Assembly: GCF_018390605.1 (NCBI RefSeq) | Contig: NZ_JAHBGD010000024.1 | Location: 310,001 to 374,000 of the forward strand | Source: Ancylobacter defluvii | Lineage (GTDB): Bacteria > Pseudomonadota > Alphaproteobacteria > Rhizobiales > Xanthobacteraceae | DNA length: 64,000 nt | Direction: 5' to 3' | Shown: positions 45,799-49,960 of the stretch, piece by piece | Layout: each line of letters opens with the position of its first letter | Position numbering within the stretch: position 1 is the stretch's first letter | Program-made: the position numbers and the translations under genes | The notes under the pieces: generated by a model | Databases searched by the model: none | The model's input: only the letters and a program-made list of their open reading frames with translations | What the model was told of the DNA's origin: nothing

Positions 45799-46617
45799 TC
45801 ACCATGCCGGCAGGATCGCGCCCTTGAAGCGGGTGCCGAGGAAGTCCTTCACTTCCTGCGACTGATAGGCCTTCACCAGCTTCACCACCGCGGGCTTGCC
45901 CTCGTCGCCGGCACGCACGGCGATGAAATTGCCGTAGGGGTTGTCGGTCCGGCTCTCCTGCACCAGGGCGTCCTTGCGCGGGTCGAGCTTGGCGCCGAGC
46001 GCGTAGTTGGTATTGATCACCGCCCCGTCGAGATCGGCGAGCTGCTTGGGCAGCAGCGCCGCGTCCAGCTCGCGCAGCTTCACCTTCTTCGGATTGCCGG
46101 TGACGTCGAGCACGGTCGGCTGCAGGCCCTTGCCCGGCACCAGCGTGAGGAGGCCGTTGGCGGCCAGTAGGTTCAGCGCCCGCCCGCCATTGGACGGATC
46201 GTTGGGAATGCCGATCTGCGCGCCTTCGGGCAGGTCCTTGAAGTCCTTGAGCTTCACCGAATAGAAGCCGATCGGCTCGACGATGGTGAAGCCGGCCGCG
46301 ACGATCTTGTAGCCGCGCGCCGCGATCTGCGCGTCGAGATAGGGTTTGTGCTGGAAGGCATTGGCGTCGAGGTCGCCGCGCGAGAGCGCCTCGTTGGGCA
46401 GCGTGTAATCGGAGAAGGTGACGACGTCGATCTCCAGCCCCTCCTTCGCCGCGACCTTCTTCGCCACCTCGGCGATTTCCTCCTCGTCGCCGCCAATGAC
46501 GCCGAGCTTGATCTTGTCGGCGGCAGCCTTGACGTCGGCTTGGGCGGGCAGAATGGCGAAGGCGGCCAGCGTGGCGCCGAGGCCAAGGCCGAGCCCGCGG
46601 CGGGTAAGGGCAGTCAT
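45799..46617 (-). CDS. metQ: MetQ/NlpA-family binding protein (divergent copy)
   Basis: A 272-residue methionine-type ABC binding protein. The ATG at 46617 follows CAGGAG by 8 bp. The signal is TRRGLGLGLGATLAAFAIL ending PAQA, without the lipobox cysteine usual in MetQ, so the mature protein is probably soluble. Typical pieces are NAFQHKPYLD, GIPNDPSNGGRAL and VINTNYAL. It is divergent from the metNI operon and should share that ABC engine. Ligand may be methionine or another sulfur compound. Confidence 0.92.
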   Translation of the reverse strand: MTALTRRGLGLGLGATLAAFAILPAQADVKAAADKIKLGVIGGDEEEIAEVAKKVAAKEGLEIDVVTFSDYTLPNEALSRGDLDANAFQHKPYLDAQIAARGYKIVAAGFTIVEPIGFYSVKLKDFKDLPEGAQIGIPNDPSNGGRALNLLAANGLLTLVPGKGLQPTVLDVTGNPKKVKLRELDAALLPKQLADLDGAVINTNYALGAKLDPRKDALVQESRTDNPYGNFIAVRAGDEGKPAVVKLVKAYQSQEVKDFLGTRFKGAILPAW

Positions 46618-46692
46618 GGTGTTCACTCCTGAGGTGCGGAAGGCGCGCAGGGCACCGGTTGCCTCAGCTAGGCGGGGCGGCGCGAAATAGTC

Positions 46693-46710
46693 TATTCAAT
46701 TAATGGAATA
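46693..46710. promoter_or_regulatory. Near-perfect 18-bp palindrome, candidate operator
   Basis: TATTCAATTAATGGAATA is symmetric at all but one base pair. It lies 76 bp before the metQ start on the minus strand, a good place for a repressor or activator of sulfur uptake. The regulator is unknown. Confidence 0.5.
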
Positions 46711-46783
46711 CAAGGTATGCATATTTGTTATGCGGATTGCGCACGCATTGTGCAGACGTCGTCACGCCACTGGCACAACGAGT

Positions 46784-46793
46784 AATCTATTAG
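46784..46793 (+). promoter_or_regulatory. AATCTATTAG motif shared with the cystine-type ABC operon
   Basis: The 10-mer AATCTATTAG matches AATCTAGTAG found on the minus strand at 62060-62051, in the same direction relative to the downstream operon and at similar distance (about 145-160 bases) from the first start codon. Confidence 0.35.
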
Positions 46794-46953
46794 TTTAGTT
46801 GACTTCTCCCGTAGGCATGATAAATAGCGTGCTGTTCGATGGCGTAGCCGTCGGATCGCGGCATTTGACACCCGGCAGATTGCACCGCGTCACCAATGCT
46901 AAAGCGCCACGGAGCGACTTCGTGGTTGGGCAACGAGCTTAAGGAGCTGAGCC

Positions 46954-46989
46954 ATGACCATGTGTTGTCGACGTCCCAAACGGGCCTGA
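46954..46989 (+). CDS. Putative 11-residue Cys-Cys leader peptide (MTMCCRRPKRA)
   Basis: A tiny open frame with a perfect AAGGAG ribosome site at 46941-46946, seven bases before ATG. It has two consecutive cysteine codons (46963-46968) followed by RRPKRA and a stop that falls inside a GGGCC-TGA-GGCCC hairpin. It precedes the small ORF-metN-metI-metQ genes. Consecutive codons for the regulated amino acid are the hallmark of leader-peptide attenuation, so it may sense charged Cys-tRNA. The role is inference; the ribosome site and peptide are directly visible. Confidence 0.55.
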   Translation: MTMCCRRPKRA

Positions 46990-47040
46990 GGCCCCTTCTC
47001 CGCCCTTTGCCGAGACTGAAGGATGCCCGTGCGGGCGTCC
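46982..47040 (+). promoter_or_regulatory. Two hairpins of the putative attenuator
   Basis: Hairpin A (GGGCC-TGA-GGCCC, 46982-46994) contains the leader stop codon. Hairpin B (47021-47040) has an 8-bp stem with a GTGC loop and one G-T pair. The bases right after the Cys codons (46970-46976, GACGTCC) can pair with the right arm of B (47033-47039, GGGCGTC), so ribosome position could choose between structures. No T tract follows B, so control may be by Rho or by access to the next start. Confidence 0.45.
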
Positions 47041-47059
47041 GACCATTGGGATATCTGCG

Positions 47060-47260
47060 ATGAGCTCCGTCATCCTTTCGGGCGCCGCCGAGGCGCCATT
47101 GAACCTTTCCGAACCCAGCCTGGACGAGATCCTCGCCGACCCGCTGGTCGGCCTGATCCTGCGTCGCGACGGGCTCACCCCCGGCGTGGTGCGGGTGAAG
47201 CTCGACCGCGAGCGCCAGCGCCTCGCCCGCTCCGGCCACGCCCTTCCCCGCGCCGCCTGA
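47060..47260 (+). CDS. Small 66-residue protein of unknown function
   Basis: A short protein starting MSSVILSGAAEAPLNLSEPS with the compact core DEILADPLVGLILRRDGLT and a basic helix KLDRERQRLARSG. It has no signal or cysteine. Codon use resembles the neighbouring genes and it fills the space between the leader and metN (23 bp before metN), so it is probably translated. The ribosome site is weak (TTGGGA). Not recognised; a small regulator or adaptor of the importer is possible. Confidence 0.55.
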   Translation: MSSVILSGAAEAPLNLSEPSLDEILADPLVGLILRRDGLTPGVVRVKLDRERQRLARSGHALPRAA

Positions 47261-47283: not shown

Positions 47284-48468
47284 ATGATTCAGAACGCCTC
47301 CGCCCCGCCCTTCCCGCCGGCGCTGTTCCGCGACCTCGCCGCCCGCCTGCCCTCGGGGGCTGGTAGGGCCTCGCGGGCGCACGAACCCGCCGGGCCTGGC
47401 GGCCGAGGCGGGGCGGCGGATGGTGCTGCCATCGTGCTGCGCGACGTCGCCAAGACCTTTCCCGCCCGCGGCTCGGATGCGGCGGTGGAGGCGCTGGCCG
47501 ACATCGCGCTCGATATCCCGCGCAGCGAGATCTACGGCATCATCGGCCGCTCCGGCGCCGGCAAGTCGACGCTGATCCGCACCATCAACGGGCTGGAGCG
47601 CCCGACCCGCGGCGAGGTGATCGTCGACGGCGTCACCATCAACCGGCTCGACGAGGCGGCGCTGCGCAACGAGCGGCGGAAGATCGGCATGATCTTCCAG
47701 CACTTCAACCTGCTCTCCTCACGCTCCGCCTTCGACAATGTGGCGCTGCCGCTGGAACTGGCCGGCCTCTCCCGCGTGGCGATACGCGCCAAGGTGGAGC
47801 GGTTGCTCGATCTCGTCGGCCTCGCCGACAAGCGCGACCGCTACCCGGTCGAACTGTCCGGCGGGCAGAAGCAGCGCGTCGGCATCGCCCGCGCCCTCGC
47901 CACCGATCCCAAGGTGCTGCTGTCCGACGAGGCGACCAGCGCCCTCGATCCCGAGACCACGCGCTCCATCCTCGCTTTGCTGGCGCGGGTGAATGCCGAA
48001 CTCGGCGTCACCATCGTGCTGATCACCCATGAGATGGCGGTGATCAAGGAAATCTGCCACCGCGTCGGCGTCATCGAGGCCGGGCGCATCATCGAGGAAG
48101 GCCCGGTCGGCGAGGTGTTCGCGCATCCGCGTACCGCCACCGCCCGCTCCTTCATCGGCAGCCTGCCCGGCCGCGAGATTCCCGCCGCGCTGGCCGGCCA
48201 TCTGCGCGCGGATCCCACCGGCGCCCGCCAGAGCGTGCTGCGCCTTACCCTCACCGGCGCGGCGGCCGGCCAGCCGGTGGTCACCCGCCTGGCCCGCCAG
48301 CTCGGCATCGACGTGGTGCTGCTCGGCGGCCAGATCGACAGCATCGGGACGCTGCCCTTCGCGCTGCTCTATGTCGGCGTGCCGACGCAGGCCTGGGCGA
48401 GCGGCGCGGTCGGCGCGGCGCTGGAGGCGGCCGGCGCCAGCACGGAGGTGATCGGCCATGTTCTCTGA
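47284..48468 (+). CDS. metN: Methionine-type ABC transporter ATPase MetN
   Basis: A 394-residue ATPase. Walker A is GRSGAGKST, signature ELSGGQKQR and Walker B VLLSDEATSALD, with switch THEMAVI. The C-terminal NIL/ACT-like domain (about residues 315-390) is typical of MetN and allows feedback inhibition by the imported amino acid. An unusual 48-residue Ala/Gly-rich N-terminal stretch precedes the ATPase core; the ATG at 47284 lacks a clear ribosome site, so the true start is uncertain. It overlaps metI by 11 bp. Confidence 0.93.
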   Translation: MIQNASAPPFPPALFRDLAARLPSGAGRASRAHEPAGPGGRGGAADGAAIVLRDVAKTFPARGSDAAVEALADIALDIPRSEIYGIIGRSGAGKSTLIRTINGLERPTRGEVIVDGVTINRLDEAALRNERRKIGMIFQHFNLLSSRSAFDNVALPLELAGLSRVAIRAKVERLLDLVGLADKRDRYPVELSGGQKQRVGIARALATDPKVLLSDEATSALDPETTRSILALLARVNAELGVTIVLITHEMAVIKEICHRVGVIEAGRIIEEGPVGEVFAHPRTATARSFIGSLPGREIPAALAGHLRADPTGARQSVLRLTLTGAAAGQPVVTRLARQLGIDVVLLGGQIDSIGTLPFALLYVGVPTQAWASGAVGAALEAAGASTEVIGHVL

Positions 48469-49138
48469 CCTGATTTCACCGGCCATCCTCAGCCTCATCG
48501 TCGATTCGACGCTCGAGACCCTCTACATGGTCGCCATCGCGGCGCTGATCGGCACGCTGGCCGGCCTGCCGCTCGGCATCTTCCTGGCCACCAGCGCCAG
48601 GGGCGAGCTGTTCGAGGCGGTCACGGTCAACCGTGTACTCGGGCTCATCGTCAACGCCACCCGCTCGACGCCGTTCATCATCCTCGTCGTCGCCATCATC
48701 CCGTTCACCCGCCTCGTCGCCGGCACCTCGATCGGCACCACCGCCGCCATCGTGCCGCTCTCCCTTGCCGCGACGCCCTTCATCGCCCGCATCGTCGAGG
48801 CGGCGGTGCGCGAGGTCGACCAGGGCCTCGTCGAGGCTTCGCTGGCCATGGGCGCGACGCCGCTGCAGATCGTACGCAAGGTGCTGATCCCCGAGGCGCT
48901 GCCCGGCCTGGTGCTCGGCATCACCCTCTCGGTGGTCAGCCTGCTCTCCAACTCCGCCATGGTCGGTGCGGTGGGCGGCGGCGGGCTGGGCGACCTCGGC
49001 ATACGCTATGGCTACCAGCGCTTCATGCCCGAGGTGATGCTGATGGTGGTGGTCGTGCTCATCATCCTCGTGCAGACCGTGCAATCGCTCGGCGAGACGC
49101 TGGCGAAGAAGGTCAACCGCCGGCTGCGGCGCCACTGA
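48458..49138 (+). CDS. metI: Methionine-type ABC transporter permease MetI
   Basis: A 226-residue permease with five to six hydrophobic segments, starting MFSDLISPAILSLIVDSTLET in parts and carrying coupling loop EASLAMGATPLQIVRKVLIPEA (ASLAMGATPLQIV). NATRSTPFIILVV is a MetI hallmark. It overlaps metN and precedes the second metQ by 28 bp. Confidence 0.94.
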   Translation: MFSDLISPAILSLIVDSTLETLYMVAIAALIGTLAGLPLGIFLATSARGELFEAVTVNRVLGLIVNATRSTPFIILVVAIIPFTRLVAGTSIGTTAAIVPLSLAATPFIARIVEAAVREVDQGLVEASLAMGATPLQIVRKVLIPEALPGLVLGITLSVVSLLSNSAMVGAVGGGGLGDLGIRYGYQRFMPEVMLMVVVVLIILVQTVQSLGETLAKKVNRRLRRH

Positions 49139-49165: not shown

Positions 49166-49960
49166 ATGTTCACGCGCTCCATCCTCGCGGCGTTCGCCCT
49201 CCTCGCCACCGCCGGCATCGCCGGAATCACTCCTGTCCGCGCCGAAACCATCCGCGTCGCCGCCACCCCCGGCCCGCACGCGCAGATCCTCGAGGCGGTG
49301 AAGCCGGTCGCCGCTGCCAAGGGGCTCGACATCAAGATCATCGAATTCTCCGATTATGTGGTGCCGAACCAGGCGCTCGATGCTGGCGAGATCGAGGCCA
49401 ACTCGTTCCAGAACCGGCCCTATCTCGACAACCAGAAGGCCGACCGCGGCTACAGGATCGAGCCGGCGGCGCTCACGGTGAACTTCCCGCTCGGCATCTA
49501 TTCCAAGAAATGGAAGAGCTGGGCCGAGGTGCCGGACGGCGCCACCGTCGCCATCCAGAACGACCCGACCAATGGCGGCCGCTCGCTGCTGCTCCTGCAG
49601 GACAAGGGTGTGATCAAGCTGAAGGACGGCGTCGGCTTCAAACCTACCGTGGTCGACATCGTCGAGAACCCGAAGAAGCTGCGCATCGTCGAACTGGAAG
49701 CCGCGCAAACCCCGCGCTCGCTGGAGGACGTCGACGCAGCCGCCATCAACACCAACTACGCGGTGTCGGCCGGCCTCGACCCGGTGAAGGGCCCGATCCT
49801 CAGGGAGGAAGCCAAGGGCCCCTATGTGAACCTCATCGCCGTGCGCAGCGTCGACAAGGACAAGCCCTGGGTGAAGATACTGGTCGATTCCTACCATTCG
49901 CCGGAGGTGAAGGCCTTCATCGACCAGAAGTTCAAGGGCTCGGTGCTGACGTCCTGGTGA
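49166..49960 (+). CDS. metQ: MetQ/NlpA-family binding protein (operon copy)
   Basis: A 264-residue binding protein with Sec signal MFTRSILAAFALLATAGIAG and a VRA cleavage site, again without lipobox cysteine. Features: VVPNQALDAGEIEANSFQ, NDPTNGGRSLLL, AINTNYAV. It is a paralogue of the divergent metQ; together they give one MetNI engine two receptors, possibly for different sulfur compounds or enantiomers. Confidence 0.93.
   Translation: MFTRSILAAFALLATAGIAGITPVRAETIRVAATPGPHAQILEAVKPVAAAKGLDIKIIEFSDYVVPNQALDAGEIEANSFQNRPYLDNQKADRGYRIEPAALTVNFPLGIYSKKWKSWAEVPDGATVAIQNDPTNGGRSLLLLQDKGVIKLKDGVGFKPTVVDIVENPKKLRIVELEAAQTPRSLEDVDAAAINTNYAVSAGLDPVKGPILREEAKGPYVNLIAVRSVDKDKPWVKILVDSYHSPEVKAFIDQKFKGSVLTSW

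Follow-up and report, generated by a model that had tools for sequence, protein, structure and literature searches.

The question raised by this locus is how a short ORF with adjacent Cys codons, lying before an operon of the metNIQ type, could take part in the control of that operon. Riboswitches and leader-peptide attenuators are usually treated separately. The preliminary description of the window (the whole stretch of 64,000 nucleotides analyzed here, from an Ancylobacter genome) had read the ORF as a lone leader. The leader was there, but a SAM-II-like aptamer directly upstream of it had been overlooked. We propose that the region is probably an RNA with two inputs: translation of the leader would be governed by a SAM-II-like switch, and the leader, sensing Cys-tRNA, would in turn control the operon.

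The operon in the window

The features of the operon were as follows.

46799..46827, + strand: possible promoter, TTGACT then GATAAATAG (by eye; similar element in 12 same-genus leaders)
47060..47260, + strand: 66-aa ORF between the leader and the metN-like gene
47284..48468, + strand: metN-like ABC ATPase (NCBIfam/Pfam matches)
48458..49138, + strand: metI-like permease (NCBIfam/Pfam matches)
49166..49960, + strand: metQ-like binding protein (NCBIfam/Pfam matches)

The earlier assignment to the metNIQ type held. The MetI protein scored above its NCBIfam cut-off, and the MetQ protein passed the TIGR00363 cut-off while staying below a stricter MetQ model. MetN was the top match of the ATPase (388.9 bits), which contains a NIL domain and missed the equivalog cut-off of 499.7. 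The 66-aa ORF had no match in Pfam or NCBIfam; its homologues were found in 12 of 41 genomes, its own included, all of the window's genus. A consensus scan of 46630-47110 returned no promoter-like site, the 46799-46827 element included. The scan returned no terminator-like site either, and a classical terminator in the window was rejected. A T tract is missing, as remarked earlier.

A SAM-II-like aptamer upstream of the leader

The segment between the possible promoter and the leader ORF could be assigned as below.

46856..46930, + strand: SAM-II-like aptamer with inserted hairpin P3 (model R1, 105.3 bits, the window sequence itself being among those used to build that model; model R2, 68.9 bits)
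46857..46861, + strand: P1 5′ strand, CGCGG, pairs with 46885-46889
46863..46868, + strand: AUUUGA loop, homologous to the third strand of the SAM-II pocket (alignment; role from an excerpt of PMC6061858)
46871..46875, + strand: P2 5′ strand, CCCGG, pseudoknot, pairs with 46926-46930 and covaries across genera
46879..46883, + strand: pocket strand AUUGC, aligned to UUGC of SAM-II
46885..46889, + strand: P1 3′ strand, CCGCG, pairs with 46857-46861
46898..46903, + strand: pocket strand GCUAAA (alignment to SAM-II)
46907..46925, + strand: inserted hairpin P3, CCACG...CGUGG (96.9% of cells paired, distal compensatory changes)
46926..46930, + strand: P2 3′ strand, UUGGG, pairs with 46871-46875

In the same-genus alignment, this upstream block was better conserved than the mini-ORF region. 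The SAM-II core was present (P1, AUUUGA, UUGC, GCUAAA and the P2 pseudoknot), with P3 placed between GCUAAA and the P2 3′ strand. The pocket strands AUUUG, UUGC and GCUAAA were kept and nearly invariant, UUGC and GCUAAA being preset in the pattern-selected rows. In the SAM-II and SAM-V structures these strands build the SAM site, and SAM-II is stated to lack P3 (PMC6061858, in the portion available).

At the gathering threshold, Rfam (Rfam 15) returned nothing in the window, nor in 9 further loci. A relaxed search of 46780-47080 gave SAM-II long loops (RF01726) as the best match, at 16.2 bits of 44. SAM_alpha (RF00521) was reached below threshold in relatives (23.4-29.7 bits of 36; 1 of 12 loci and 7 of 20). 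Membership of another Rfam family was rejected, SAM_alpha being the sole cis-regulatory family in the 20 loci at E up to 1; likewise, CC2171 sRNA reached 9.9 bits of 75 in the window. The element would thus belong with SAM-II by its kept pocket strands and P2, while missing the Rfam gathering threshold. A canonical SAM-II was separately present in the same genome (58.1 bits). The variant model told the two kinds apart: it scored 9.8-28.4 bits on canonical SAM-II (17 loci of 30 fetched) versus 68.9-83.2 bits on the window together with two loci from Azospirillum plasmids.

Covariation of the aptamer stems

P2 switched in step across lineages (examples are GGAGC/GCUCC, GGGC/GCCC, CCCGGC/GUCGGG and GAAGC/GUUUC). 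In 101 distinct combinations, P2 pairing scored 10.99 on average, compared with 9.71 for permuted partners (permuted maximum 10.37, 1000 runs). Helices of at least 4 bp were formed in 74 of the 101, against a permuted mean of 62.0 and a permuted maximum of 76, which was not exceeded. A 60-row alignment was compared with 500 shuffles, a test that ignores relatedness; all comparative counts here take in related sequences. Paired cells made up 85.3% versus 80.8% in the shuffles (0/500), double-change cells numbered 40 versus 20.7 (0/500), and the covariation score was 0.157 versus 0.099 (0/500). Stricter measures gave no excess: pairs with a double change were 6 versus 5.5 shuffled (265/500), and pair types were 19 versus 18.1 (217/500). 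Within the sequences compared, the P2 pseudoknot is supported by covariation in that its mean score lay above all 1000 permutations, the stricter alignment measures lying no higher than the shuffles.

The P1 stem was present in 60 of 60 rows; its three tested pairs were invariant, hence no covariation signal was possible there, and the invariance of core and P1 is circular in the pattern-selected set because the search fixed part of the core. At locus L278 a compensated P1 pair was seen by eye. The cells paired in the alignment came to 58.8% for P2 and 96.9% for P3, which carried compensatory changes in its distal pairs. On our own reading, a one-base register shift between rows accounts for part of the low P2 value, and some rows, such as the Azospirillum-type ones, have no clear P2 helix.

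Distribution and downstream genes

With model R1, for which only sequences of the genus had been used, matches at E of 0.1 or less were found in 46 of 198 genomes of the family and in 64 of 297 of the order; the weak matches may be chance or canonical SAM-II. With model R2 at E up to 0.001, matches were found in 78 of 385 alphaproteobacterial genomes. Since 8 of the 78 had only matches below 38 bits, near the canonical range, 70 of 385 were kept, all at 43 bits or more. A phylum draw gave 18 of 398 genomes, of which three reached no more than about 31 bits; among the matches listed, all were in Alphaproteobacteria, in a draw whose class make-up is not given. A pattern scan of named genomes yielded at least 120 stretches, the matches listed including Azospirillum, Bosea, Microvirga, Chelatococcus, Methylopila, Rhodoplanes, Rhodopseudomonas, Labrys and Ancylobacter oerskovii.

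The regulon was sampled with 63 first downstream proteins, hand-picked from 128 such ORFs and searched against Pfam at E up to 1e-8; some of these picks were in a wrong frame or came from genes without relation, such as that of a chaperonin. Among the best 25 of 35 families were 16 ABC ATPases, 13 proteins with NIL (as in MetN), 11 NlpA/MetQ and 8 NMT1-like proteins, together with 3 Cys/Met PLP enzymes, 3 CysG dimerisation domains, 3 SBP_bac_11, 2 PF03601 (presumably YeiH-type), 2 OsmC and 1 serine acetyltransferase. The MetN model matched 16 members of the 63, as did other ABC ATPase models. Where a longer ORF came straight after the aptamer, we took it to resemble CysG (L202), a sulfate-binding protein (L178, L184, L229, L238) or OsmC (L125, L180, L190, L221). 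In two Azospirillum plasmids, the order was a hypothetical protein, metQ, then metN and metI, with an acyl-CoA ligase inserted in one; the leader was not annotated as a gene in either, the gene table being incomplete. Judged from these sequences, the regulon appears to be mostly metNIQ and other sulfur-acquisition genes.

These data bear on the ligand. The aptamer could be a riboswitch for a ligand other than SAM, perhaps one from the cysteine side of metabolism, with the Cys leader working unchanged; P3 and the sulfur-acquisition targets would then be signs of this change of ligand. The missed Rfam thresholds would agree with this, as would targets mostly in uptake or assimilation, not methionine synthesis, in a genome that has a separate canonical SAM-II; a SAM-aptamer variant with another ligand, spermidine, has also been reported (PMC10853860, in excerpt). 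However, the SAM-site strands AUUUG, UUGC and GCUAAA are retained, and we regard a non-SAM ligand as rather unlikely.

Cys codons in the leader ORFs

The leader of the window and its predicted hairpins comprised the following features.

46941..46946, + strand: Shine-Dalgarno sequence AAGGAG of the leader ORF (sequence)
46954..46989, + strand: leader ORF MTMCCRRPKRA, stop at 46987-46989
46963..46968, + strand: tandem Cys codons UGU UGU within the leader ORF
46973..46979, + strand: GUCCCAA, predicted partner of the next ribosome site (predicted fold)
46982..46994, + strand: hairpin A, GGGCC-TGA-GGCCC, around the leader stop (predicted fold and same-genus alignment, columns 148-150 with 159-161)
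47025..47036, + strand: hairpin B, GCCCGUGCGGGC (predicted fold)
47046..47052, + strand: UUGGGAU with GGGA, likely ribosome site of the 66-aa ORF (GGGA position)

The AAGGAG, the 7-nt gap, the ATG at 46954 and the peptide MTMCCRRPKRA with its adjacent Cys codons were all present as the preliminary description had them. It had also placed the leader stop inside hairpin A, followed by hairpin B, and both hairpins appeared in the predicted fold of 46929-47100 (z -2.14 versus dinucleotide shuffles; 7 of 200 shuffles as stable).

An SD-preceded mini-ORF with CC or CCC was found in 12 of the 12 same-genus leaders examined (13 loci were listed, and L036, a second copy in one genome, was left out). 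The peptide at an Ancylobacter oerskovii locus (L179) was identical to that of the window. A genome-wide search with an ATG..CC-Arg-Arg pattern was uninformative, giving 93 matches in the window's own genome (46 forward, 47 reverse).

Leader ORFs were read across loci by a single rule, the first SD-preceded start 38-95 nt past GCUAAA with ATG preferred, and an ORF under 65 aa was called short. The core was readable in 57 of the 59 loci L044-L102 (L072 and L073 were dropped), and 115 aptamers with enough flank came from among the at least 120 pattern stretches; the combined set held 172 aptamers, 158 of them unique. The unique aptamers were followed by 134 short ORFs and 17 longer ORFs, and 7 had no SD-preceded start. 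Cys was found in 132 of the 134 short ORFs, twice or more in 105 and as CC in 73; it fell within the last 8 residues in 130 and made up 10.5% of the residues. Base shuffles of the leaders (200) gave means of 73.8 ORFs with Cys and 4.0 with CC (maxima 89 and 11), and frames +1 and +2 of the leader DNA contained Cys in 91 and 49 ORFs and CC in 3 and 0. The leader statistics are not circular, because the pattern search fixed part of the aptamer core and not the leader.

Canonical SAM-II loci served as a control, read by much the same rule over a wider range (L244 was unreadable, leaving 29 of 30). A Cys leader ORF was found in 0 of the 29: one had a 3-aa ORF without Cys, 4 had no ORF, and 24 had long ones, most of them near 400 aa in length. 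To us, these long ORFs look like homoserine sulfhydrylases. Class and phylum searches gave 38 further R2 loci, of which 7 were dropped (6 duplicates, 1 unreadable core) and 31 read, with 28 short ORFs, 2 longer ones and 1 locus without. Cys occurred in 23 of these 28, two or more in 16 and CC in 7, and five had none. A short SD-led Cys ORF before a sulfur gene, the pattern by which a candidate Cys attenuator would be recognized, was thus found in 132 of 134 cases and in 23 of 28 further ones.

Codon usage was also compared. The leaders used UGU 221 times and UGC 120 times; in the ORFs downstream the counts were 8 and 125, an odds ratio of 28.8. These ORFs had been chosen by high third-position GC and were therefore biased toward UGC. 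Because this filter favours UGC, an unfiltered check was made, in which 15 annotated Azospirillum genes had UGU 0/UGC 33 versus 20/20 in Azospirillum-type leaders. The 132 leaders with Cys were 5-64 residues long (median 26) and shared little besides Cys and Arg, Arg being the next residue after Cys in 130 of 341 cases. The Cys enrichment, the UGU preference and the divergent peptides therefore point to Cys decoding as the selected function of the leader.

The preliminary description had proposed Cys attenuation before a sulfur importer and had made this depend on conservation. Comparison strongly supports the leader, and because of this, with mini-ORF and Cys codons recurring in the genus and the class, the doubt about conservation falls away; the sensing of Cys-tRNA we infer.

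Spacing to the first start codon

The distance from GCUAAA to the start had a median of 52 nt, with the central 90% at 47-61 nt within the search range of 38-95, and it was 48-76 nt for the 17 longer ORFs. The aptamer looks tuned to the first start codon, whether of a leader or of a gene. Because the spacing to this start is near-constant with or without a leader, control by the aptamer would be exerted on initiation there.

The spacing also bears on whether a single regulator could suffice, either a plain Cys attenuator with an upstream standby or stability RNA, or a riboswitch alone with the ORF as a by-product. Aptamer-free Cys leaders have been described before cysS (PMC8632094, in excerpt), and among the 158 aptamers are the 17 that precede an ORF of at least 65 aa (most read as the gene itself) and the 7 without an SD-preceded start. 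Against this, 132 of 158 loci have both aptamer and Cys leader, conserved at a near-constant distance, and P2 and P3 covary, so that we hold a single regulator to be quite improbable. That the Cys-rich peptide acts in trans, for instance by binding metal or RNA as a small protein, appears very improbable, for the Arg after Cys in 130 of 341 cases and the precedent of peTrpL, a leader peptide active in trans (PMC7298713, in excerpt), are opposed by lengths of 5 to 64 with little in common beyond Cys and Arg, and the preference for rare UGU points to decoding.

The ribosome site downstream of the leader

An alternative pairing of the mini-ORF had been proposed earlier with the right arm of hairpin B. 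A pairing was indeed predicted, but its partner was the next ribosome site: GUCCCAA (46973-46979) pairs with UUGGGAU (47046-47052) in the predicted fold. A short pairing of the 3′ half of the mini-ORF with hairpin B is possible by eye. In 11 same-genus leaders, GGGA lies 8-9 nt upstream of the start of the 66-aa ORF.

In the window, the predicted unpaired probability of this site was 0.01 with no ribosome, 0.60 with a ribosome at the second Cys codon and 0.35 with one at the stop. The predicted exposure rose by 0.16 to 0.59 in 8 of 11 same-genus leaders; L035 and L043 changed in the opposite direction, and L041 barely changed. Since a ribosome at the leader stop exposed the next site about equally in several same-genus leaders, the predicted fold does not separate stalling from passage. 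Outside the genus, exposure rose by more than 0.15 in only 2 of 51 loci and fell by more than 0.15 in 1. The idea that ribosomes on the Cys codons generally free the downstream site was rejected, as control windows rose more (mean 0.086 versus 0.018). Terminator-like hairpins were found in 28 of 132 loci, compared with a shuffle mean of 9.9 (maximum 16, 20 shuffles). Because the site helix is absent outside the genus while terminator-like hairpins are somewhat enriched, the final regulatory step seems, from these predictions, to differ from lineage to lineage. Swapping of the P2 3′ strand (CUCC) between P2 and the leader SD (GGAG) was rejected, permuted partners doing equally well (fraction 0.314).

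A two-input model

Comparison of the loci brings out the aptamer, the leader, its Cys enrichment, the spacing and the sulfur regulon. From these we infer the ligand, ribosome stalling, the wiring and the direction in which each input acts. The first input would be the SAM-II-like pseudoknot aptamer with P3, most likely with SAM as its ligand. The second would be the Cys-rich short ORF, often with the rare UGU codon, on which a shortage of charged tRNA-Cys would make a ribosome stall. The aptamer would most likely act on initiation at the first start codon. By analogy with the off-switches reported for SAM-II and SAM-V (PMC6061858 and PMC1273637, in excerpt), ligand should reduce initiation of the leader. 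Leader translation would in turn control the sulfur operon. In the window, a ribosome on the Cys codons would leave the next ribosome site open and an untranslated leader would leave it closed, and low SAM together with low Cys would give full expression of the operon.

The broader statement is that a SAM-II-derived riboswitch subclass, with a P3 insertion and perhaps a shifted ligand, is widespread in alphaproteobacteria and gates a Cys-sensing leader, giving two-input logic over sulfur acquisition, with SAM or a related sulfur metabolite as one input and charged tRNA-Cys as the other; we consider the case for it evenly balanced. If true, one transcript would read both ends of the Cys-Met-SAM pathway, and this would help account for the control of methionine, sulfonate and sulfate uptake in many alphaproteobacteria. 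It would also provide a naturally occurring logic gate made of RNA and add a new structural form to a textbook pseudoknot riboswitch.

Relation to known systems

The Cys leader peptides of mycobacterial cys operons are reportedly the subject of Canestrari 2020. Such leaders resemble the present ones in having Cys runs near the stop and no obvious terminator, but they are actinobacterial, and an aptamer is not described in the excerpt of PMC1262725. In the same excerpt, the LEU element of actinobacterial leuA is similar in that regulatory codons of the leader base-pair with the following gene's SD; it differs in responding to leucine, in its other pseudoknot and in having no SAM-II-like aptamer. 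Closer in lineage is uORFC-8-2 before cysS in Rhodobacterales, an alphaproteobacterial tandem-Cys uORF with proposed ribosome-mediated attenuation. It has an intrinsic terminator and an aminoacyl-tRNA synthetase as its target, however, and the portion of PMC8632094 at hand describes no SAM-II-like aptamer with it.

On the riboswitch side, SAM-II (RF00521 SAM_alpha; RF01726) shares P1, the AUUUG loop, UUGC and GCUAAA, P2, occurrence in alphaproteobacteria and the link to sulfur genes, whereas the variant of the window has P3, sub-threshold scores, a Cys leader ORF and mostly uptake or assimilation targets. SAM-II is known upstream of metA and metZ (PMC9373788, in excerpt), as well as metY, metX, hom and others, and metNIQ is not named among the SAM_alpha targets in the excerpt of PMC4239095, which compares methionine regulation between genomes. 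The SAM-II of S. meliloti metA acts on translation, as proposed here, with the used start far 3′ of the riboswitch SD, but its aptamer is canonical, and a Cys leader ORF is not reported there in the portion of PMC9373788 available. In the M. tuberculosis B12 riboswitch, riboswitch and uORF translation also interact, with another ligand and in another lineage (PMC11260477, in excerpt). A limited survey of open-licence papers found none in which such an aptamer and a Cys leader are joined. We rate as new the SAM-II-derived aptamer subclass coupled to a Cys leader, both parent kinds being already known.

Other features of the loci

Several copies of the variant aptamer occur in some genomes, ahead of different sulfur genes; genome G134 had four matches (L057, L108 and L109 among the loci). 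Locus L173 carried two variant aptamers in opposite orientation. In Kiloniellaceae-type genomes an OsmC-like gene lay directly 3′ of the aptamer (L125, L180, L190, L221), and at L125 an O-acetylhomoserine sulfhydrylase-like ORF was seen further downstream.

In the window, a second metQ-like gene lies at 45799-46626 on the - strand, divergent from the operon. In the region 46685-46800, the AATAGTCTATTCAATTAATGG before this gene and the AATCTATTAGTTTAGTTGAC before the operon look related, as if a common DNA-binding regulator existed, and the AATCTATTAGTTTAGTTGAC element recurs in same-genus leaders.

A small unannotated protein was often found between leader and operon in several genera. It is of the DPLVGLILRRDGL type in the window's genus (47060-47260) and of the Y(V/I)IEV..AGIVVRD type in many other genera (L108, L112-L117, L119, L120, L122). 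In several genera (L063, L064, L078, L092), a compact hairpin 3′ of the leader stop separated a GGAG-like site from the start codon of the small protein, as though its folding drew the two together.
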